Part shown: positions 4,753 through 44,212 of the stretch, one piece after another
How positions within the stretch are numbered: the stretch's first letter is position 1
How the letters are laid out: every line of letters begins with the position of its first letter
Source of the DNA: a virus
Strand: one strand, 5' to 3'
DNA: 44,530 bases
Virus record (IMG/VR): IMGVR_UViG_3300042888_000872
Span: 1 to 44,530 of that record
Translations under genes and position numbers: made by a program
Notes under the pieces: model-generated
Database searches by the model: none
Seen by the model: only the letters and a program-made list of their open reading frames with translations
What the model was told of the DNA's origin: nothing

Positions 4753-5088
4753 ATGGCCCAGAATTATCCGCTTCGCATTGAAGCTGGTGCAACATATACC
4801 CGTCAGTTTAGGTTGACTAACAAAGACGATGGTTCTCTTTACAATTTTACCGGATACACTGGTAAAACTCAGATCCGCGAATATCCTTCTTCTACTCTTG
4901 CCCTTGAAGTTACTACTTCTATCGATGTGCCTACAGCAGTTATTACTATCACTATCACTGCGATTCAGAGTGCAACTTTGACTGATCAAAAATATTATTG
5001 GGGTATGGAAGTTTCTGCTGCCGGCGGTGAGCCTACTATTCGTTTAGTTGAAGGTGAAGTTTCTGTAACACCGCAGGTGGTTTACTAA
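4753..5088 (+). CDS. Small structural protein encoded before the fibre (beta-sandwich, BppU-N-like)
   Basis: This 111-residue protein begins [19 protein letters not shown], has a central [11 protein letters not shown] and ends with [15 protein letters not shown]. This pattern is typical of the short beta-sandwich proteins found beside fibre genes in many phages, similar to the N-terminal domain of baseplate protein BppU. It probably binds or helps attach the large fibre encoded next. The stop overlaps the next ATG (TAATG), so the two genes are translationally coupled. The family is recognised by pattern only. Confidence 0.55.
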
Positions 5089-8000
5089 TGGCTGACGACA
5101 TCATCATTGAAGTTCTCAATGAACCTAATGATGTAATTGAAGTTTCGCATGTTGATGGCACTGCTACCGAAGTTTTTTATGCGTTAGGTGAAACTGGCCC
5201 TCAAGGCCCGACCGGCCCGACCGGTCCGACTGGCCCTACCGGAGCCACTGGTGCTACTGGTGCTAAAGGCGACACTGGTGATCAAGGTATTCAGGGTATT
5301 CAAGGTATTCAGGGCGTCAAGGGGGATACTGGCGATACTGGCCCGCAGGGTATTCAAGGAGTAAAAGGTGATACCGGCGCAACTGGGGCTACTGGTGCTA
5401 CAGGGCCACAAGGTATTCAAGGTATTCAAGGTGTTAAAGGTGATACAGGTGCTAATGGTGCCGATGGTGGTTCTTCTGCTTTCTTTCCATATAGTGTAAA
5501 AACAACAATTCAGTCTGGCGACCCCCTTTCAGGACATGGTATTTGGAATACTGTTGGTCAGATTGACGCAACAATTCTTTCTGCAAGCCACTTTGATAAA
5601 GACGGTGATGATGTAAACCTATTTCTTCATTTAATCAAAGATGGCGACTTCTTGATTATTCAAAGCACAAACAACTCAAGTCAATATCAAAAGTGGGAAG
5701 TAACTGGAGATCCAGTGGAATTTACTGGTTATGACCAGATTCCAGCTAGTTACGTTGAGGGTGGACACATCTTTAGCAATAATGATAGCGTTCTTTTCAT
5801 CATTATTTCCGTAGGCGTTGTTGGTCCTACAGGCCCGACTGGTGCTACAGGTCCACAGGGTGCTACAGGTCCTACAGGGCCTACAGGGCCGTCTGGTGTT
5901 GTAGCTGTAACAGCTCCTATTACTAACTCAGGTACTTCTACTTCAGCGAACATCGGCATTGACCTAACAAACATTGCACAAAGGAACGCAAACAATAACT
6001 TTTCAGGTGCTCAAGTTGTAGTTCCAAGTGGTGTTGCGCAGGTTCCAATGACTTTGAGAAGTCTTGCAAGCCAGACTGCCAACATGTTGGAGATTCAGGA
6101 TGAATTAGCCAATACTTACGCATCTATTACCAGATTTGGTACTACTCGCCTTGGTGGTTCTGTTATGACTGGTGGCCGTCTAATGGTTCAAGCTGGTGGT
6201 GCGTTAGTTGGTTTGCAGGTTCGTGATGGTGGTACTGGTGCGAACATTCAGGAATGGCAGTCAGCTGCTGGTTCAAATCATCTTTGGGTTACTTCTGCTG
6301 GATTTATTCGTCAGTTTGGCGATGCAGGTGGTCAGGTAAGTATCGTTTCTAATCTTGCAACTAATAGAAATCTAGTTCTGCGTGGTGCGGCGAGTCAATC
6401 GGCTAACTTACAAGAATGGCAGTCAAGTGCAGGAACTGTGCTCACGAATGTCAGCCCTAACGGCTCACTCACTGCTCCGAGCCTTACTGTTTCAAGTGGT
6501 GGAACATACACAACAGGATCTATTTATGCAGACTCAAACTGGGGAATGCTATTTAGGGCAAGAACTGCTTCCCCACTAAATGCACAATATCGTTGGGCTA
6601 ACTCCGCTGATACAGAACTTATGCGTTTAGATAACTCTGGTCGTTTGATTGTTAGCACAGCTGGAGGCACTGCTCAGGGAACTGCACAAATTGAAGCAAC
6701 AACAGTAAACGCAACAACTATCGGCATGATTCTTCGTGGTGCAGCGAGTCAGACAGCCAACTTGCAAGAGTGGCAAAATTCTTCAGCGATCCCTCTTACA
6801 GTTATTAGACCTATTGGTGATATTGTTATTGGGGCAACACAAACTGGTAAAAATGGTTCCATAAATAGCTCTGGAGTATCAACATACGGAACATCATCTC
6901 TTTTAGTTAGAGGAACAGCCTCTAACCAAAACATGATTGAGCTTTGGGCTAATGGCAAAGATGCGATCATATCTGGTGCAGTTGGAAACGGAACATCAGT
7001 TGTTTACACAACATCTGTGAATCATACATTTACAACTAGCGATTATGTCACTGTTGGCGGAATTACTCAAACTGGTGGAACTGGATCATTAAATGGCCAG
7101 GGAACTGTAACAGCTGTAACAGGCAATACATTCACAATTGCTAATACTGCAACTGCTACATACACTTCAGGTGGTTATGCTAGAAACGCTGGAACACCAG
7201 CGACCATTCTTCAAGCGTATAGAAACGATGGTTTCGGGCTGTTGACTATTGGCCCAAGCGGTGGAATAGCCAGTGCTGATGTAATCTCAACAACTGCGGT
7301 TGGATATCAAAACGCTGGATTCTCGGCACAGCCAAATGCTGGTATTGTAGGTAACGCAGCTATTAAAGCTTTTGGAACTCAAAGTCAAACTGGAGCTATC
7401 CTTGATGTAAGAAACTTTGTTTCTAAATCTGGTGGAGCAGATCAGTTATTTGGTATTGTGCCAGACTTTTCTGCTTCAGGAAGTGCACAGGGTTATAAGG
7501 CTTGGGTTTATCTTGGAAACTCTACCGCACCAACTTCTAACCCTGTTGGTGGTGGCTACATATTTGTTGACTCTGGTTCTTTAAGATATCGTGGAACCTC
7601 TGGTGCGTCAACAACTATTGTTAACGCTGATGGAACTAATCCTTTGTCTTCGACCAATAACACTTTTAGTGGTGTAAATACTTTTAATAACTCATTGGGA
7701 GTTGGTTCTGGGTTTGCTGGTTCTACTGGTATTGAAATTGGTAATACCACTGGCACTGCAACAACACCATTCATTGACTTCCACTCTGGTGCTACAGCGA
7801 TTGACTTTGACTCTCGTATTGTTGCATCTGGCGGCAATGGCACAGTAGGTCAAGGAACGCTAACTTACACTGCTGCTAGCAGCATATTTACTGGAGCAAT
7901 CACTGCTCAAAGTTCTCTTACCGCACAAGCCAATGCAACTATCTTTGGTGCTAACTCTGGTTCTGTGCCTTTAACTATTAGAGGCAGATCCGGCCAAACA

Positions 8001-10526
8001 GTCAATTTAGAAGAATGGCAAAACTCAGCTGGAACGATACTTGCAAGCATTTCAAATATTGGAAACCTAACTGTAGGTGCTAACCTTACTTTTACAAATC
8101 CTGGTGTTGGAAATGAAACAAAAGTTAACTTCACTAAAACTAGCGACCAAGCATGGCTGGCTGTTACGGAAAGAGTTTCTGACTCTACCACATATGAATT
8201 TGGTATGGCAGACAATCCTGATGGTGGAGATTACTTCCAATGGAGATTTAATGACTGGCAAAATCCTGGAACAGGATGGATGCCACTTCAAATTACTGCA
8301 AACACAAACAGGTTTATTGGAAGAACTACCTCAATGTTTGGAAATATGCAACTTCCATACAACTCCGGATTCTTTACCTACAACAACACTTCGGTCACAA
8401 CTGACAATGAAGTAAATAAATATACTCCAACAAACTCAACATCACAGCAGGTTCCTAAAGATGCTGGAACGGGAACTGGAACATTTACCGTAAATGCTAC
8501 TGCTTTTACTGGTACTGGAGCTACTCCTTATTGGGTTACGATTGATGGTACTGGAACATTTAAATGGGGTACTGGAAGCAACTTCTTATCTACTCCAGTG
8601 GCTACTGGTGTGGTGATTACAGGTGCTGCACAAACTTTGTCTAATGGTCTTACAGTAACTCTTTCAACTACCGGTCATGTGCTAAACGATAGATGGTCGT
8701 TTTCTGCGTATCCTGCTCAACAATTTTCAGTTGGCTCTACGCCACTTAGCTCTGTAATCTCAACCGTAGCTACAAGAGCAAACTTTGTTGGACAAGTTAT
8801 TCGTGGTGCTGCAGCTCAGACGGCTAACTTGCAGGAATGGCAAAACTCGGCTGGCTCAATCTTATCTCGAATAAACTCTGCTGGAGATTTGTTTACCGAC
8901 AGAGTAAATCTTGGTGGAGCTGTTTTTGGTGGTGGAATATACTATGGAAAACTAAACATTCTGCAAGAAGCAGGTGGACACAATATCGGTTTGCTGGGTA
9001 GAGATAACTCAAGTGTAGATATGATGCGTATGCGTCAAGGTGCAAATTCCGTAGCCGATTTTATCACTATGCAGAACAGTAGTGGTACCACACTTAGTGG
9101 TATAAATGCTGTAGGTCAAACTTATACAGGTTCAATAACACCTATAATTACAGCTGTTGGTGCAGGTATAAATGGTGTTTCAGGTAATGGAACAACAGTA
9201 ACCTTTTCAACAACTAACGCACATAACCTAGCAAATGGTGATCGTGTAACTATTGCAGGTTTGACTCCTGCAGGATATAACGGAACATACGTCATTTCAG
9301 GTGTATCAACCTTTAGCTTTAACATTACTAACACTACTACAGGCACTGCTTCAGGTTCAGGAACAGTAAGCGTTGACTCACAAGCAAGCATTACTGCTAG
9401 AAGTGCAGGCACAAAAGGATTGGTTATTCGTGGCGTTGCTTCCCACGCTGTTAACTTACTTGAGGTTCAAGATAACTCTGCAAACGTTTTGGCGGCAATC
9501 AACGGTGCTGGACTAATCTCTTCTGTCAGACAGATCAGCGTGTCTCAAAGCAACGCTGGCGAAACAATGATGTTTGTTCGTGGAGCAGCTTCACAAACTG
9601 GTGATTCTTTTGCTGTTAGAGATTCAAGTGCAAATACTATTGCTGGGTTTAGTGCTACAGGCAGAATTTACTCTGGTGTTTCTGGTAGCGGTCAAACATT
9701 TTTAGGTGGCTTAACTTTAGGTGGCGGATCTGTTGCTTCACAGATGGGTATTGTGGCTGGTGCTGCTACTACTGTCGGTGCTGTGATTCGTGGCTCTGCA
9801 TCTCAGACTGCTAACTTGCAGGAATGGCAAAACAGTAGTGGAACAGTATTATCTCGCATTGATTTAAATGGTTCTATCTCTGTACCGTTTTTAGGTTCGC
9901 AAGTTGCAGGGGCTAGTTATTTACAAACAAATGCTGACACACAATCTTTGAGCATCTTTGCTGGTGCAGCTGCATCTAAAGGTCTTGTTGTTAGAGGCTT
10001 TGCATCTCAATCGGCTAACTTACAGGAATGGCAAAACTCGGCAGGAACAATATTAGCAAGGATTGGTTCTGGTGGTGCATTTGCTGTTAACCAAATGTAC
10101 AATTCAACGAATCAAAGCCCTGCAATTCTGCTTGCTGCTACTAATATAAGAATTGACACTCGGGCAGCAGGGTCCATCGGCCTTATTATTAAGGGAACAA
10201 CATCTCAGACGGCTAATCTACAGGAATGGCAGAATGATGCTGGAACTATAACTGCTCGCGTTACTTCTTCAGGAGAAATTCAATCTGTTACTAATGCTGT
10301 TCGTGGTGCTCAACTCTTTACGTTCCAGTATTGGAATCAGTTACAGGAACGTAACTCTGGTGGCGAATTGACCATGAGTAAGCAAACTGCTACTTCAACT
10401 AACCCTGGAGCGGATTCAGGCAGAATCTATTTTAGAGATGGCACTGTTCCTGGTACACTAAAACTTGTCGTCAGGGCAGGTGCATCCGGTGCGGAAACCA
10501 CTATACTAGATAACATACCTCAATAA
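5088..10526 (+). CDS. Giant collagen-like fibre protein
   Basis: This 1812-residue protein is the largest in the window. After an N-terminal anchor of about 35 residues comes a collagen-like run of Gly-X-Y triplets (about residues 36-128), a globular insert, and a second short collagen stretch (about 244-268). The rest is a beta-rich shaft built from about a dozen copies of a module whose core is [18 protein letters not shown]. Two related inserts (DNA about 6985-7190 and 9165-9390) share a GNGT...NG...F(T/N)I pattern and look Ig-like. Proteins like this form trimeric fibres that bind host surfaces. The gene lies between capsid and connector genes, not after the tape measure, so a capsid-attached fibre is possible. 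Confidence 0.75.
6040..10290 (+). repeat. Repeated fibre module (about a dozen degenerate copies)
   Basis: Within the fibre gene a unit coding for a pattern like (L/V)(V/I)RG-x-ASQ(T/S)ANLQEWQ-(N/S)-x-AG recurs about 10-13 times, including near 6060, 6235, 6385, 6740, 7980, 8810, 9425, 9570, 9785, 9985 and 10190. Cores such as GGCTAACTTGCAGGAATGG are nearly identical at the DNA level in several copies. Spacing is irregular. These are protein shaft repeats, not a CRISPR array, and they could support recombination that changes fibre length. Confidence 0.8.
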
Positions 10527-23070: not shown

Positions 23071-23225
23071 TGAAATACGAAATAATTGAAGTCCAGGGAA
23101 TTGATGGCGTGGAAGAACATGTAATCGTAGAAACTGCAAATAACGAATACATTACTTTTCCTGCCCTTGATTCAAACCCAAACTACATCCAATTCAAAAA
23201 ACAACTTGCTGAGGAGCAAAAATGA
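23070..23225 (+). CDS. Small 51-residue protein between fibre and endolysin genes
   Basis: An ATG at 23070 overlaps the fibre stop (TAATG). The 51-codon frame reads MKYEIIEVQGIDGVEEHVIV and ends in a charged helix (KKQLAEEQK). Its TGA overlaps the endolysin ATG (ATGA). Perfect coupling at both ends and ordinary codon use argue that it is real. The family is not recognised; such proteins at the end of fibre operons may be assembly helpers, but this is a guess. Confidence 0.7.
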   Translation: MKYEIIEVQGIDGVEEHVIVETANNEYITFPALDSNPNYIQFKKQLAEEQK

Positions 23226-23806
23226 TTCAATACCCTTTTGATAAACTTCCACAAATCACTAGCCCTTATGGCTGGAGAGTTCACCCAACACAGAAGACTA
23301 AGAAGCACCACAATGGCGTAGACCTTGTTGCTCCTGCTGGTAGCTGGGTCGAATCTTTTGCACCTGGTCGTGTTGTGCATGCAGGCCCAAGCAAGTCTAA
23401 GAAGTCTGACGGATCTGTCGGTGGGTTTGGCTACCATGTTATTATCCGCCACTTGATCAATGGTGAATATGTTACTAGCGTTTACGCACACTTGCGCAAA
23501 GACAGCATTCAGGTAAAGGCTGGTCAAAAGATTCAGGCCGGAACACCAGTTGGTCGTCAAGGAACAACAGGTGATTCAACTGGTGAGCACCTTCACTTTG
23601 AGATCTGCAAAGGCAAGACTTACCGCTGGAGCAACGACGGATCAAGTTTCTATTCTCCACTTGAATTTATCAAGCATGCTAAAGAGGGTGAGGCTTTGGC
23701 TAAGAAAGCTAAGGCAGCTACTCCAGCAGATGAGCCTGCTCACGAAATGCCAGAGCACAGTATTGCTCCGGTAAAAAATGCTCCGGTAGCTCCAAAAACT
23801 CTATAA
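23222..23806 (+). CDS. Endolysin, M23 family metallopeptidase
   Basis: This 194-residue peptidase cuts peptidoglycan cross-links. The M23 zinc site is complete: His30 and Asp34 in HHNGVDL, His90 in YAHL, and His123/His125 in GEHLHFE. The core (ITSPYGWRVHP at the start) is a standard LytM-like fold. A C-terminal tail of about 45 residues rich in Ala, Lys, Pro and Glu is probably flexible, and no classical wall-binding repeat is visible. There is no signal peptide, so release should depend on the membrane proteins encoded next. It overlaps the preceding small gene by 4 bases. Confidence 0.85.
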   Translation: MIQYPFDKLPQITSPYGWRVHPTQKTKKHHNGVDLVAPAGSWVESFAPGRVVHAGPSKSKKSDGSVGGFGYHVIIRHLINGEYVTSVYAHLRKDSIQVKAGQKIQAGTPVGRQGTTGDSTGEHLHFEICKGKTYRWSNDGSSFYSPLEFIKHAKEGEALAKKAKAATPADEPAHEMPEHSIAPVKNAPVAPKTL

Positions 23807-33748: not shown

Positions 33749-34449
33749 GCTGGATCCGTTACCTTGCATTTGAAACATTGTTCCTGTCTATTAAACTGTT
33801 CTGGGTCTGGATTTATTCCCAGATTTTCCCAAATTGCTTCTAATCTTTTCCATGCCATTTCAGCGTGTGCCTGCTCATACTCAAAAGTGTATGACCAAAC
33901 ATCTGCATCATTGGTTCCATCCCTGTTTATAAAAACCAGAGAACATGAATCGATTGGTGTTCCAGCTTTACCTAGACCCCATGCGTAGATCTGTGCTTGG
34001 GTGTAGTACTTCTGTAAGTTATACAATACACCGGCATCCTGACTTTCTCCAAACACGACACGCTGATATTTTCTAGTTTTATCTCTGGTGCTGGTCTTCC
34101 AGTCCACAATGTGTCGATCATCTACTAGCACAAGGTCGGGCTTGCTGTGAATCTCACCATAGCCTTCTAGTGTTCCCAGAAAGATCTTTTGCTCAACGAC
34201 CGCTGAGGCTATCTCCGGCAGGTCTGACTTGGTTATCGCATCTTCTAAAAAGCTATGCGTGGCGGTGCCAATCTTGGCTCCTAACCAATACTTGAATGGT
34301 GCTTCTGGCATGCCAAGAAGCTTTTTTGCTAGATGATAGTCGCATGGATCAGAGAAGTCTGATGCGCCTATTTTCTTTTGTCTATCTCTATCTGACTCTT
34401 GCTTTAGTAGCGATAAAGTCATTTCGAGCATTCTATCGTTTGTTATCAT
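33745..34449 (-). CDS. Cas4/RecB-like PD-(D/E)XK exonuclease
   Basis: This 234-residue nuclease has His65 in GTATHSFLE, Asp105 in SKPDLVLVDD, Asp116/Lys118 in HIVDWKTS, and a QAQIYAWG motif. This is the order of the Cas4/RecB nuclease core, with Asp in the D/E-x-K position. Cys36 and two C-terminal Cys (EQCFKCK) suggest a possible Fe-S cluster, as in Cas4, though only three Cys are visible. It should produce 3' single strands for Sak4. ATG 34449 has an AGAGGAG SD and overlaps the WhiB stop by 4 bases. Confidence 0.85.
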   Translation of the reverse strand: MITNDRMLEMTLSLLKQESDRDRQKKIGASDFSDPCDYHLAKKLLGMPEAPFKYWLGAKIGTATHSFLEDAITKSDLPEIASAVVEQKIFLGTLEGYGEIHSKPDLVLVDDRHIVDWKTSTRDKTRKYQRVVFGESQDAGVLYNLQKYYTQAQIYAWGLGKAGTPIDSCSLVFINRDGTNDADVWSYTFEYEQAHAEMAWKRLEAIWENLGINPDPEQFNRQEQCFKCKVTDPA

Positions 34450-34796
34450 TTTTCTCCTCTTGGATATCTGTGTTCTGTAAAATCTATTCCGCCCCAAACG
34501 CCAAATCTTTCTTCATTTAAAACTGCGAAGTCATAGCATAGCTTAAGCAAAGGACAATCTGCACAAAGTTCTTCACACTGATCTTCTGTAAGCACCCTAG
34601 TGCCACCGGAGTCGTTTTCAAATCCAACATTGTCATAATCAGTATAAAAGTATGGATTATCTTTACATGGCCAAAACTTTACTTCATCCATGGCTTCGTG
34701 CAGCTGACTATATGCAGTTACGGCTTCTTTTTTTACCCCTAAAAATACAGGCCTTTCTGCCCCTTGTCTTTTAATCTTGTTCGTCATAATTGCCAT
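34446..34796 (-). CDS. whiB: WhiB-family Fe-S regulator
   Basis: This 116-residue protein has the four cluster Cys of WhiB proteins: Cys44, then Cys78, Cys81 and Cys87 in CADCPLLKLC. It is followed by FGVWGGIDF, the sigma-factor contact loop. WhiB proteins occur only in actinobacteria and their phages, where they change host or phage transcription. It overlaps a 46-residue membrane gene at its start and the exonuclease gene at its end. ATG 34787 is a possible alternative start. An extra Cys74 is present. Confidence 0.9.
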   Translation of the reverse strand: MAIMTNKIKRQGAERPVFLGVKKEAVTAYSQLHEAMDEVKFWPCKDNPYFYTDYDNVGFENDSGGTRVLTEDQCEELCADCPLLKLCYDFAVLNEERFGVWGGIDFTEHRYPRGEK

Positions 34797-34911
34797 AGTC
34801 CTCTATGTAATCTTCTTTAAGATTCTCTATTAAGACCATAGCGTAGAATCCGGCAAAAAGCAATACTGAAATAAAAATTATTACAGCTGTTATTGTCAAA
34901 AATACATTCAT
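34771..34911 (-). CDS. Mini membrane protein, 46 residues
   Basis: From ATG 34911 a 46-codon frame encodes one membrane span (MNVFLTITAVIIFISVLLFA, then GFYAMVLIENL) and an acidic cytoplasmic or external tail (EDYIEDYGNYDEQD). It starts one base after the upstream stop and overlaps the WhiB start. It fills an otherwise empty gap in a tight operon, so it is likely real. Function unknown. Confidence 0.65.
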   Translation of the reverse strand: MNVFLTITAVIIFISVLLFAGFYAMVLIENLKEDYIEDYGNYDEQD

Positions 34912-34912
34912 T

Positions 34913-35122
34913 TTACATTCCCAATGCAATCATCATCGATTCAAGTATTTTGTCCGCATCTTCATTGTTCTGAACAAGTGCAACCATCGAATCTAGCAGC
35001 TCCTGATTGGATATATTTCTTAAGTGAATAGCATATTCTTCCGGACTAAATGTTGGTGGATCAAGTTTGTTATCGTTCACCCAGGCTAAATAGTTTTCAA
35101 TGAACTGTATTTTATCTTGCAT
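34913..35122 (-). CDS. Small helical protein, 69 residues
   Basis: This acidic helical protein starts MQDKIQFIENYLAWVNDNK and has PPTFSPEEYAIHLRNI in the middle. ATG 35122 has an AGGAG SD at seven bases and overlaps the DUF3310 stop. The frame extends upstream to 35158 but inside the preceding gene. Its family is not recognised. Confidence 0.65.
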   Translation of the reverse strand: MQDKIQFIENYLAWVNDNKLDPPTFSPEEYAIHLRNISNQELLDSMVALVQNNEDADKILESMMIALGM

Positions 35123-35339
35123 CTTCGTTCTCCTGTATTCTTTTAATTTCATCTTCAATGTAAAAGATCGCTTTACGAAGATCCTGGATAGTTGTGTCTT
35201 TATTTTTTAGTCCAGCTCTCCAAAGGTATTTGAATGCGTTGCCAATGTTAAAATTCCTGTGTCTAGTTATTTCAATGCATTCAACGCCACTAGGGTCGCT
35301 AGTGTAATGCACAGGGTGATTTACTGCATCATTTTTCAT
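35112..35339 (-). CDS. DUF3310 protein
   Basis: This 75-residue protein has VNHPVHYTSDPSGVECIEIT, then FNIGNAFKYLWRAGLKN and DLRKAIFYIEDEI. This is the complete pattern of DUF3310, common in phage early regions and often annotated as a nucleotide kinase without proof. ATG 35339 overlaps the end of a 50-residue membrane protein gene. Confidence 0.85.
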   Translation of the reverse strand: MKNDAVNHPVHYTSDPSGVECIEITRHRNFNIGNAFKYLWRAGLKNKDTTIQDLRKAIFYIEDEIKRIQENEDAR

Positions 35340-35481
35340 TGTGATTCTCGCAATTTTCAATAGCTGTTTGTTCGGTTGTGTACTGCGACCAACAGTTAGT
35401 TTCAATTTTGTTGTTTAATATTAGAAATAACAAAATCAAAAGTATTGAAATAAAAACTATTAGAACTAATTTAGCTTTCAT
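35329..35481 (-). CDS. Mini membrane protein with two external-type Cys, 50 residues
   Basis: ATG 35481 opens a 50-codon frame: a strong N-terminal membrane segment (MKAKLVLIVFISILLILLFL), then a short soluble tail with two Cys in NCWSQYTTEQTAIENCE. The Cys are placed as if to form a disulfide outside the cytoplasm. It overlaps the upstream stop and the DUF3310 start, so it is coupled on both sides. Function unknown. Confidence 0.7.
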   Translation of the reverse strand: MKAKLVLIVFISILLILLFLILNNKIETNCWSQYTTEQTAIENCENHNEK

Positions 35482-35656
35482 CTGTTTCTCCCTTGATAAT
35501 AGACACTACATAGTCAAACATCTCTTGAGAGATATAATAACGCTCACCCTCGTATTCTAGTGCCTTGATGATGCGTTCACGTTCGCGCTCCGCACCCTGA
35601 TCCCTATAAAGATCTCGCACACTATCTGCGTTCTCAAAACGATTTTGATCAGTCAT
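35471..35656 (-). CDS. Small charged helical protein, 61 residues
   Basis: This protein starts MTDQNRFENADSVRDLYRDQ, followed by GAERERERIIKALEYEGERY and a final YVVSIIKGETDES. It is highly charged and helical; similar short proteins with RERERII motifs are common in phage early operons without known function. ATG 35656 overlaps the prepilin-peptidase stop (TAATG). Confidence 0.65.
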   Translation of the reverse strand: MTDQNRFENADSVRDLYRDQGAERERERIIKALEYEGERYYISQEMFDYVVSIIKGETDES

Positions 35657-36120
35657 TATTTTGCCACCAATGCAACTGTAAGTATCGAAGCAAAAGCAAA
35701 TATAACTATCGGCCCTAATGGAAGATGCGTGATTGAACGCTTTAGCAAAATAACTATTGTAGCTAAAAAGCCCAGAGCAAGCGATATAGGTGCCAACAAA
35801 AGTGCGCCTAGTGGGGTAAACCACGCTAAAAGCATTGTAAGTCCAGTCAAAAGTTTTACATCACCCATACCGATATGGTTTTTATAGTTCATAAATACAC
35901 CTAGAACAAATACAACAAATGCTATGCCCAGTGAAATTCCAAAAGTTGCCCAAGCCGATGTCAATATCGCTAACGATAGCTGTGATACAAAAGTGATTGA
36001 AATCATCGGCAACACAATCTTGTTCGGAAGCCTGTGTTGCTTCATGTCAATTACTAAAAGTGGTAATGCTGTTACTGCTATATATGCTACCGGCAGTCCG
36101 GTGATTATTGTTTCTAACAT
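35656..36120 (-). CDS. Prepilin-peptidase-like protein (A24 family, TadV/CpaA size)
   Basis: This 154-residue multi-span membrane protein carries both active-site motifs of the aspartic prepilin peptidases: Asp25 in VIDMKQHRLPN and Asp87 in GMGDVKLLTG. The usual C-terminal PLGP(I/V) element is also present (HLPLGPIVIF). It lacks the N-terminal Cys4 and methylase part, as in the short TadV/CpaA type that processes Flp/Tad pilins. It should act in the membrane and cut leader peptides. No pilin-like substrate was found in the window. It may act on host pilins. It lies between a Cys-rich mini-gene and a charged small gene in one operon, with an AAGGAG SD. Confidence 0.8.
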   Translation of the reverse strand: MLETIITGLPVAYIAVTALPLLVIDMKQHRLPNKIVLPMISITFVSQLSLAILTSAWATFGISLGIAFVVFVLGVFMNYKNHIGMGDVKLLTGLTMLLAWFTPLGALLLAPISLALGFLATIVILLKRSITHLPLGPIVIFAFASILTVALVAK

Positions 36121-36129
36121 GATCTCTCC

Positions 36130-36246
36130 TTAATCATTATTTTCTGTGCACCATGCACATCTTTTACCATAGCAAGAACATTCTGGATCTCCGCATGGAT
36201 CGCATTCGCATTCGGTAATCTCATTACCATCTTCATCTATAATCAT
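36130..36246 (-). CDS. Cys-rich mini-protein, 38 residues with seven Cys
   Basis: ATG 36246 overlaps the NlpC/P60 stop (TAATG). The 38-codon frame reads MIIDEDGNEITECECDPCG and later ECSCYGKRCAWC. Seven Cys (13, 15, 18, 23, 25, 30, 33) suggest metal binding, with no membrane segment or signal. It is followed by an SD and the prepilin-peptidase gene. Coupling and Cys spacing support a real gene. Function unknown. Confidence 0.65.
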   Translation of the reverse strand: MIIDEDGNEITECECDPCGDPECSCYGKRCAWCTENND

Positions 36247-36803
36247 TATTTTTCTCCTAAAATAAGCTGTGTTTTCTCTTGTTCAAGAACCCTTACAAAC
36301 CTAATCTGACTTTTTGAATAGTTGCTCAAAGGTTCAAGAACTGTTGTTCCATACATCAGATTAGCATTTACTACCATGTTTTGTCCAGCATAAATTGCAG
36401 AATGATAAAAGTTTTTTGAACCCTGATAAGCGAACACAACAATGTCGCCAACATTAGGTTTAGAAACTCTTTTACCAATATGTGCCTGCTTGTTTGCTGA
36501 ATGAGGTAGCTCCATGCCAAAGTGCGTGTAAGTCCATCGCACCATGCCTGAGCAGTCCCAGCCACGAGTGTTTGAACCTGAAAATACATAAGCAGTTTTG
36601 TTTACGCGAGAGATCAGAGCTTTCACTGTTTTTTGCATCATCGCATAATTCTTCTTTTCTTTAGTTATCTCCAAAAAATTATTTGACTCAAGAAACACAG
36701 TTGGCTTTTTTACATCAATAGAATTGTTTAACGCTGGTGTTGCGCATCCAGTCAAAACAAATGTTGCAACTCCTAATGATAGAAACATTTTTCTCTTAGA
36801 CAT
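36246..36803 (-). CDS. NlpC/P60 lipoprotein (cell-wall hydrolase type)
   Basis: This 185-residue protein begins with a lipoprotein signal (MSKRKMFLSLGVATFVLTGC), with Cys20 as the lipidation site. The NlpC/P60 domain follows: Cys84 in RGWDCSGM, LPHSANKQ, GDIVVF and His134 in YHSAIYAG form the catalytic set. Such enzymes cut the peptide part of peptidoglycan. As a lipoprotein it would be fixed outside the membrane, unlike the cytosolic M23 endolysin. ATG 36803 has an AAGGAAG SD. Its position in the early operon points to host-envelope change or exclusion rather than final lysis. Confidence 0.8.
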   Translation of the reverse strand: MSKRKMFLSLGVATFVLTGCATPALNNSIDVKKPTVFLESNNFLEITKEKKNYAMMQKTVKALISRVNKTAYVFSGSNTRGWDCSGMVRWTYTHFGMELPHSANKQAHIGKRVSKPNVGDIVVFAYQGSKNFYHSAIYAGQNMVVNANLMYGTTVLEPLSNYSKSQIRFVRVLEQEKTQLILGEK

Positions 36804-37021
36804 TATTCCCACTTCCTTTCTTTTGCTCCACGAAGAATTCTAGTTCCGATATCTGACAAAAACAAGATCCCCTTAGTATCTTTTGCAATCACATATTCCT
36901 TGGTCATAACGCGCGTGATGTTCAATACGCGCTCTCTCTCCGCCAGCACACCGGTGATAAAGATCTCGCGTTGCCCATCGGTCATATCAGCGTAAAGCAT
37001 CTGCAGCTCCTGTTCATTCAT
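36803..37021 (-). CDS. Small protein, 72 residues, unknown
   Basis: This protein starts MNEQELQMLYADMTDGQREI and has a middle FITGVLAERERVLNITRVMT and a C-terminal basic end (GAKERKWE). It is probably helical and cytosolic. ATG 37021 overlaps the helicase stop by 8 bases, and its stop meets the lipoprotein start. No family is recognised. Confidence 0.6.
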   Translation of the reverse strand: MNEQELQMLYADMTDGQREIFITGVLAERERVLNITRVMTKEYVIAKDTKGILFLSDIGTRILRGAKERKWE

Positions 37022-43105: not shown

Positions 43106-44167
43106 CTAGTCCCAAAAATCTCTATCGGTCTGGTCGGCAAAACTTGAGTAATCTCTGCGACCACGAATGGGTGGTAAATAGCCCATCTCGACTAAATCAT
43201 CGAATGAACCCATGAACTGCCCATCAAGGTCAAAGTACTCACCGAACTCATTTACAGTGTAATTCTCGACCGGTGGAAACTCGCTGACAAGACTTGGAAC
43301 ATCGCCATCATACTCCTCGTCATACCAATCAGCTGGGATAAATACATCACCCAAATCTGATGCAACATAACGACCGCCAGCTGACGGAACTGCGCAAGTT
43401 GGATCAGACTTATTGCCCGAAGTCATGTTGCGGTAATACGAAGTTGAATAATTAAACTTCTCTTCATACTCGCGGTTCTGCGCAGGCAACGCTTCTACTG
43501 TGTCAAGACGACCAGCTCGAACAGTTAGCAATGTGCGTTCCGGAACATTCTCTAAATAGATTGGCTTCTGCCCGATAGCCTTGAGCGCAGACATAAGAAT
43601 GCTCTCTGTCGATGCGAACACGAACGAACCATCTTTTAGCTGAGCAACACACAACGGACTGTGTGAGATACGCGCAACCTTAAGGGTCATGCGTTCAGCT
43701 TCGTCAAGCCATGCAACGCTAGCATCGCCATCGAGCATCTCTAACTTAGACAAGTCATTTGGATATTGAGATAGCAATGCAGGGATAACAGAACTGTCTA
43801 CCTCTGGAAGTTTGGCATCGATGTAATTGCGGACTGTGTTGTGGTTATAGATCACGCCATTGTGTACTAGGGCAATCTGGCTATCCGGAGATAGAACAGG
43901 GTGGTTATTAGCCATAACCTTGATAGACCCATGAGTAGCGTAGCGAGTGTGCAAGACTGCAACATGGGCTTCTTTGGGCATAGTCTTAAGGTTAAGACGA
44001 GCACCAGCGACATCATTCTTGAATAAGCCTGAGCCAGCTTTTGACTGCCAAGCGAAACCTGATGCCTGATTACCGCGGACATCCATCTCTACAAGTAGAG
44101 CATGAGATAACCTGCGTGGATTGATTTTTGAATTGTTTGATAATGAGAAACCTGCGATTGAACACAT
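43106..44167 (-). CDS. Class II glutamine amidotransferase (Ntn-type)
   Basis: This 353-residue protein has the glutaminase domain of the PurF/GlmS type. Cys2 right after the initiator Met (MCSIAGFS) is the nucleophile. TRYATHGS, ANNHPVLS and VHNGVIYNHNTVRNYI are the classic motifs, and DGDASVAWLD follows. It should release ammonia from glutamine. No synthase or sugar-isomerase partner domain is visible; the last 120 residues (rich in Asp, Tyr and Gly) are unassigned. The start is set at ATG 44167, which puts Cys at position 2; ATG 44173 has better SD spacing but would need propeptide removal. Confidence 0.8.
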   Translation of the reverse strand: MCSIAGFSLSNNSKINPRRLSHALLVEMDVRGNQASGFAWQSKAGSGLFKNDVAGARLNLKTMPKEAHVAVLHTRYATHGSIKVMANNHPVLSPDSQIALVHNGVIYNHNTVRNYIDAKLPEVDSSVIPALLSQYPNDLSKLEMLDGDASVAWLDEAERMTLKVARISHSPLCVAQLKDGSFVFASTESILMSALKAIGQKPIYLENVPERTLLTVRAGRLDTVEALPAQNREYEEKFNYSTSYYRNMTSGNKSDPTCAVPSAGGRYVASDLGDVFIPADWYDEEYDGDVPSLVSEFPPVENYTVNEFGEYFDLDGQFMGSFDDLVEMGYLPPIRGRRDYSSFADQTDRDFWD

Positions 44168-44212
44168 ATGCATCACCTAGTCCTTTTCTTGTTAGTTGTG
44201 AATTGTTATTAC

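Follow-up and report, generated by a model that had tools for sequence, protein, structure and literature searches.

A virus-borne A24 prepilin peptidase gene carried by actinophages and its possible action on host Tad/Flp pili

Why should a phage carry a gene for a prepilin peptidase when no pilin gene accompanies it? The question is raised by a virus record in IMG/VR, which was analysed over its whole length of 44,530 nucleotides (44.5 kb, 43% GC; hereafter the window). The initial annotation had placed a reading frame with both catalytic motifs of A24 aspartic prepilin peptidases at 35656–36120 on the minus strand. The frame lies exactly there. It starts with ATG, encodes 154 aa, ends with a stop codon at 35656, and contains both IDMKQHRLPN (with D25) and GMGDVKL (with D87). 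The stop codon and the start of the downstream 61-aa reading frame overlap as TAATG, and thus the two are probably translationally coupled (Table 1). Overlapping frames at 35645–35887 and 35924–36133 on the plus strand, together with an upstream extension of the downstream gene, were rejected as spurious.

Around the peptidase gene, a leftward block encodes a helicase, an SSB, a DUF3310 protein, a WhiB protein, an AAA ATPase, a DUF669 protein, a primase, and a DNA methylase, and the structural genes run rightward, opposite to this block. Judged by this neighbourhood, it is reasonable to place the gene in a predicted early/replication operon, as had been proposed. We searched the window for pilin, tad, and secretion genes and found none, in line with the earlier reading; the peptidase gene is thus neither within nor beside a tad locus. 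The leftward block starts with a GATase_6-type glutamine amidotransferase domain protein (43106–44176, minus strand), which belongs to PHROG 14519 in the category moron/host takeover. On the plus strand, an unusually long reading frame of 1812 aa (5088–10526) separates the capsid gene from the tail tube gene; at its start, it is similar to collagen-like tail fibre proteins (PHROG matches at about residues 20–130).

Table 1. Features at and near the predicted peptidase gene (positions in the window)
Feature	Position	Strand	Evidence or remark
Predicted A24 (TadV/CpaA-type) prepilin peptidase	35656..36120	-	PF01478, viral alignment, AF2 model
Shine-Dalgarno AAGGAGAGATC immediately 5' of the peptidase ATG	36121..36131	-	sequence read directly
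Cys-rich small ORF, 38 aa, between the NlpC/P60 and peptidase genes	36130..36246	-	
NlpC/P60 peptidoglycan endopeptidase, lipoprotein signal LTGC	36246..36812	-	PF00877, 67 bits
61-aa ORF (MTDQNRF...)	35471..35656	-	start overlaps peptidase stop
50-aa single-span membrane protein without canonical prepilin signal	35329..35481	-	
WhiB-family regulator, actinobacterial-host marker	34446..34796	-	PF02467, 38.8 bits

The sole Pfam match of the encoded protein was PF01478, Peptidase_A24 (E 1e-10; 42.4 bits against a cutoff of 26.5). This is far beyond chance and agrees with the family that the initial annotation had named. A search of the virus record with PF01478 hit this gene and no other place, and all 24 members of an alignment of viral relatives (see below) match the same model. 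The first catalytic aspartate is D25 and the second, D87, stands in the GxGD form (G84-M-G-D87). D25 is kept in 23 of the 24 aligned members and D87 in all 24; since GMGD, and not D25, was part of the search patterns of the second IMG/VR scan, the invariance of GMGD is partly built in. Four further members that were found without the A24 motifs keep both aspartates. In the lineage L094–L096 (A24 gene at 9992–10465 of L094), Asn replaces D25 and GMGD is kept; this homologue is possibly an inactive or dominant-negative form.

An AF2 model based on the 24 viral sequences has six helices (mean pLDDT 92), which fits the membrane-span pattern described before. In this model, helix 1 carries D25 near its end and helix 4 carries D87 at its start, and the two residues adjoin the positive loops KQHR and KRS. 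From the helix order and these loops, we infer that both aspartates would lie on the same, cytoplasmic, face of the membrane. With 154 aa and PF01478 as the only domain found, the protein has no N-terminal methyltransferase domain of the kind present in PilD. The missing tad locus leaves a TadV type possible, since an unlinked tadV is normal in actinobacteria; the surface Flp of Micrococcus luteus depends on a lone, unlinked tadV (PMC4322843). By its sequence, the window protein is a single-domain TadV/CpaA-type A24 prepilin peptidase with the residues of an active enzyme, and no other polytopic family gave a better match in which the two aspartates fell outside the active site.

Membership in the FlaK equivalog family was rejected (NCBIfam NF040695, 19 bits against a cutoff of 330), and a PDB sequence search with the window protein gave no match. 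When structures were compared with Foldseek, a first model had FlaK (3s0x) among its top two PDB matches (probability 0.60, TM 0.55). A better second model did not retrieve FlaK and matched unrelated membrane proteins only, and therefore the fold comparison was discarded as evidence. In BFVD, two unnamed viral proteins were matched (A0A5Q2W8A6 and A5Y2D8; probability 1.00, TM 0.60). They may share the A24 fold, so that further viruses may have A24 genes as well.

The gene has relatives in other viruses. A first alignment-based scan of IMG/VR gave five, one of them 62% identical, and the second gave 39 loci that represent about 24 distinct proteins, the window's included. Four more members were found among phages picked solely by their NlpC gene, which brings the family in IMG/VR to about 28 distinct A24 relatives in otherwise largely unrelated phages. 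A pattern search of IMG/VR with the single protein gave no match, so that an alignment-based search was required, and the diversity within the mixed alignments A1 and A4 was too great for use as queries. INPHARED contained no relative by protein search or megablast. PHROGs v4 gave no match for the window protein and one weak match (E 0.0028) among the 24 members. Pairwise dN/dS of viral A24 genes was 0.14–0.38 (ten pairs), indicating that the protein is under purifying selection. Judging from this distribution, A24 is a recurrent viral clade and not a one-off gene, and many actinophages that are for the most part unrelated have it as a moron, or cargo gene.

Among the relatives of the window phage, the gene is sporadic. 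We found 58 relatives through the primase, and PF01478 was absent from all 48 that were searched. The closest ones are L031 and L014, with about 78% identity to the window phage over the replication genes. They share the order of an NlpC/P60 gene, the Cys-rich small ORF (kept in both A24-less phages), small membrane ORFs, and DUF3310, and a small membrane ORF occupies the place of the peptidase. Thus, the peptidase is a local insertion or replacement. A small membrane protein (the 50-aa one of the window; 6568–6729 of L031; 5011–5328 of L065) has a common C-terminal pattern, CW followed by TE..AI..CE, and occurs in phages with few other genes in common.

When a genome collection was scanned, Luna-cluster genomes of aquatic Microbacteriaceae-like bacteria (Rhodoluna, Aquiluna, and relatives) were on top among the matches listed. 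We built a tree of 53 A24 proteins, leaving out L094 as a long branch. The viral proteins formed one clade (support 95/88), and this clade and the chromosomal A24 proteins of the Luna cluster formed one branch (99/97). A wider quick tree of 106 proteins agreed, though support for the viral clade was lower there (70). The comparison with host TadV homologues that had been suggested at the outset thus nests the viral clade inside the Luna-cluster branch, which points to a single capture followed by spread. The virus-borne form is roughly 25–40% identical to cellular forms. WhiB, which has been argued to be a sign of an actinobacterial host in freshwater actinophages (PMC10202952), is found in 16 of the 31 A24 contigs and indicates such a host here. 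Judged by WhiB and by its place in the A24 tree, the window phage probably infects a Luna-cluster-type (Microbacteriaceae-like) aquatic actinobacterium, in a host comparison that took in Luna-cluster genomes. The same two signs could also show merely the source of the gene and not the host.

If such bacteria are the hosts, pilins are at hand. The 18 Luna-type genomes among the matches listed have one A24 gene each, except for one genome with two. T2SSE-family matches are present in 17 of them, and T2SSF and TadE in most. Most of their tad loci lie apart from the chromosomal A24 gene, and the Flp-like and TadE-like proteins that the loci encode have canonical cleavage sites (such as RG^ASAIEYALL and DG^ATTAEYVII). 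In three Luna-cluster genomes (L232, L233, L238), one of two tad loci adjoins a topoisomerase I-like gene, and this locus encodes a Flp-like pilin with G^A(T/S/I)TAEY that is missed by the Pfam model Flp_Fap.

In the phages, a search of 28 A24 records with Flp_Fap and N_methyl gave no match; because Flp_Fap also misses most Luna hosts, its negative result in the phages is weak by itself. A prepilin motif scan gave 16 matches in 72 kb of host tad loci, which served as the positive control. The same scan of 893 kb of A24-phage DNA gave five matches (overlaps counted), none of them with G^xxxxE. No conserved substrate gene recurs beside A24 across lineages, and the 50-aa membrane protein is kept in A24-less relatives and is thus unlikely to be a substrate. 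Since no pilin candidate was found in the phages and canonical pilin sites are present in the Luna tad loci, we infer that host Tad/Flp prepilins would be the likeliest substrates of the phage peptidase. The initial annotation is therefore upheld in the identity of the enzyme and in naming host Flp/Tad pilins, whose genes a search of the Luna relatives did find, while its alternative, that the enzyme acts on small membrane proteins of the phage itself, is weakened, as scans of the window and of other A24 phages turned up no canonical prepilin signal.

We propose that an A24 moron of Luna-cluster origin acts on host Tad/Flp prepilins by cleavage and alters the pili of the infected cell, most likely against competing phages, and we give this reading as a whole a probability of about 0.5. 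The peptidase would be made early in infection and inserted in the host membrane. At the cytoplasmic face, it would remove, by a cut at G^xxxxE, the leader from host Tad/Flp pilins and from TadE-like pseudopilins, and its activity would add to or override that of the host peptidase. Altered Tad filaments on the infected cell might then help it to exclude phages that use the pilus or the cell surface. This last step has the least support; exclusion is our guess at the benefit, as the disabling of type IV pili by phages is known to serve this end. Several observations count against the proposal. Luna-cluster hosts already encode an A24 peptidase of their own, so that an extra copy would bring no obvious gain, and one viral lineage (L094–L096) has Asn in place of D25. 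Moreover, the known anti-pilus proteins of phages bind assembly proteins (PMC8764522) and involve no proteolysis.

The gene next to the Cys-rich ORF may bear on this function. Eight other A24 phages were compared in full, and the window phage has only two genes in common with every one of them, A24 and that of the NlpC/P60 lipoprotein; with three of the eight it shares nothing else. A profile of the lipoprotein matched 22 of 24 A24 records (20 of 22 without the two chosen through NlpC), a set that includes a few near-duplicates, and 4 of 18 A24-less relatives of the window phage. The lipoprotein is far commoner than A24, with about 150 loci in IMG/VR, and A24 was present in 4 of the 26 NlpC contigs tested. 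The NlpC/P60 gene of the window lies in the early block, separate from a late M23 peptidase gene (23222–23806, plus strand). The two genes might form an envelope-remodelling pair that controls host pili across very different phages: the membrane-anchored wall hydrolase would open peptidoglycan, and the peptidase would mature or disarm the Tad filaments that cross it. Since a shared host group could also explain the association, a joint function is no more than possible, and we regard such a pair as a long shot.

Other explanations of the gene were weighed against a change of host pili aimed at competitors. Instead of blocking them, the peptidase might keep host pilin processing and Tad functions such as adhesion and DNA uptake running. 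Conserved catalytic residues suit a supply of activity as well as its disturbance, and actinobacterial Flp systems do drive DNA uptake (PMC4322843). However, no competence or adhesion gene stands alongside the peptidase in the window. Membrane peptidases are, besides, usually stable enzymes that need no replenishment, and we consider upkeep of this kind unlikely. Less probable still is a substrate encoded by the phage itself, a membrane protein whose leader departs from the canonical form. Genes for small single-span proteins do lie near by (34771–34929 and that of the 50-aa protein), and phages may have substrates that motif scans miss, but the positive control shows that the scan works, no candidate family recurs beside the gene, and the window's small membrane proteins are also present in relatives without A24.

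The gene might also be a host-derived passenger with no selected role in pili, encoding a catalytically idle or moonlighting membrane protein. Its sporadic occurrence, with absence from the 48 relatives and presence in few of the NlpC-bearing contigs (4/26), would suit such a passenger, as would D25N in L094–L096. The low dN/dS, the retention of the catalytic residues in nearly all members, and the single viral clade spread across largely unrelated phages all argue against it, and we hold a passenger to be quite improbable.

A24 enzymes as a family have long been well known. We found no paper on a phage-encoded prepilin peptidase under that or variant wording, and the word "prepilin" is absent from a review of superinfection exclusion. 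The stand-alone, virus-borne A24 clade in many actinophages is previously uncatalogued in PHROGs, INPHARED, and the literature searched. Phages are known to block pili by means of proteins that attach to the assembly machinery; carriage of the processing protease itself, if true, would be a new route to this host system. A24 recurs in phages of planktonic actinobacteria, and the pili of these bacteria have, to our knowledge, received little study. Cultured strains of the Luna cluster exist, such as Rhodoluna lacicola (PMC4156110), and thus the pilus idea can be put to the test.

Among known systems, the archaeal preflagellin peptidase FlaK (PDB 3s0x) is a GxGD protease and was the best GxGD match of the first model. 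A close likeness is to actinobacterial TadV (M. luteus Mlut_05160 and the chromosomal A24 of the Luna cluster), which is similar in length (about 150–170 aa), has a single A24 domain with two conserved aspartates and no N-terminal methyltransferase domain, and is encoded apart from the tad loci (PMC4322843). Unlike these genes, the window gene is virus-borne, and the phage early operon in which it lies includes no pilus gene. A24 on mobile DNA is also found in Micrococcales plasmids and in thaumarchaeal integrative-conjugative elements (PMC6563490). In the latter, and in at least an Arthrobacter plasmid, it is accompanied by pilus or tad genes, whereas the window gene stands alone. Tip of phage D3112, Aqs1 of DMS3, and PfsE of Pf4 are likewise phage cargo directed at a host type IV filament, the kind of target that we propose here. 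These proteins bind PilB or PilC (PMC8764522), whereas the window protein is a homologue of a host processing enzyme and would act by cleavage.
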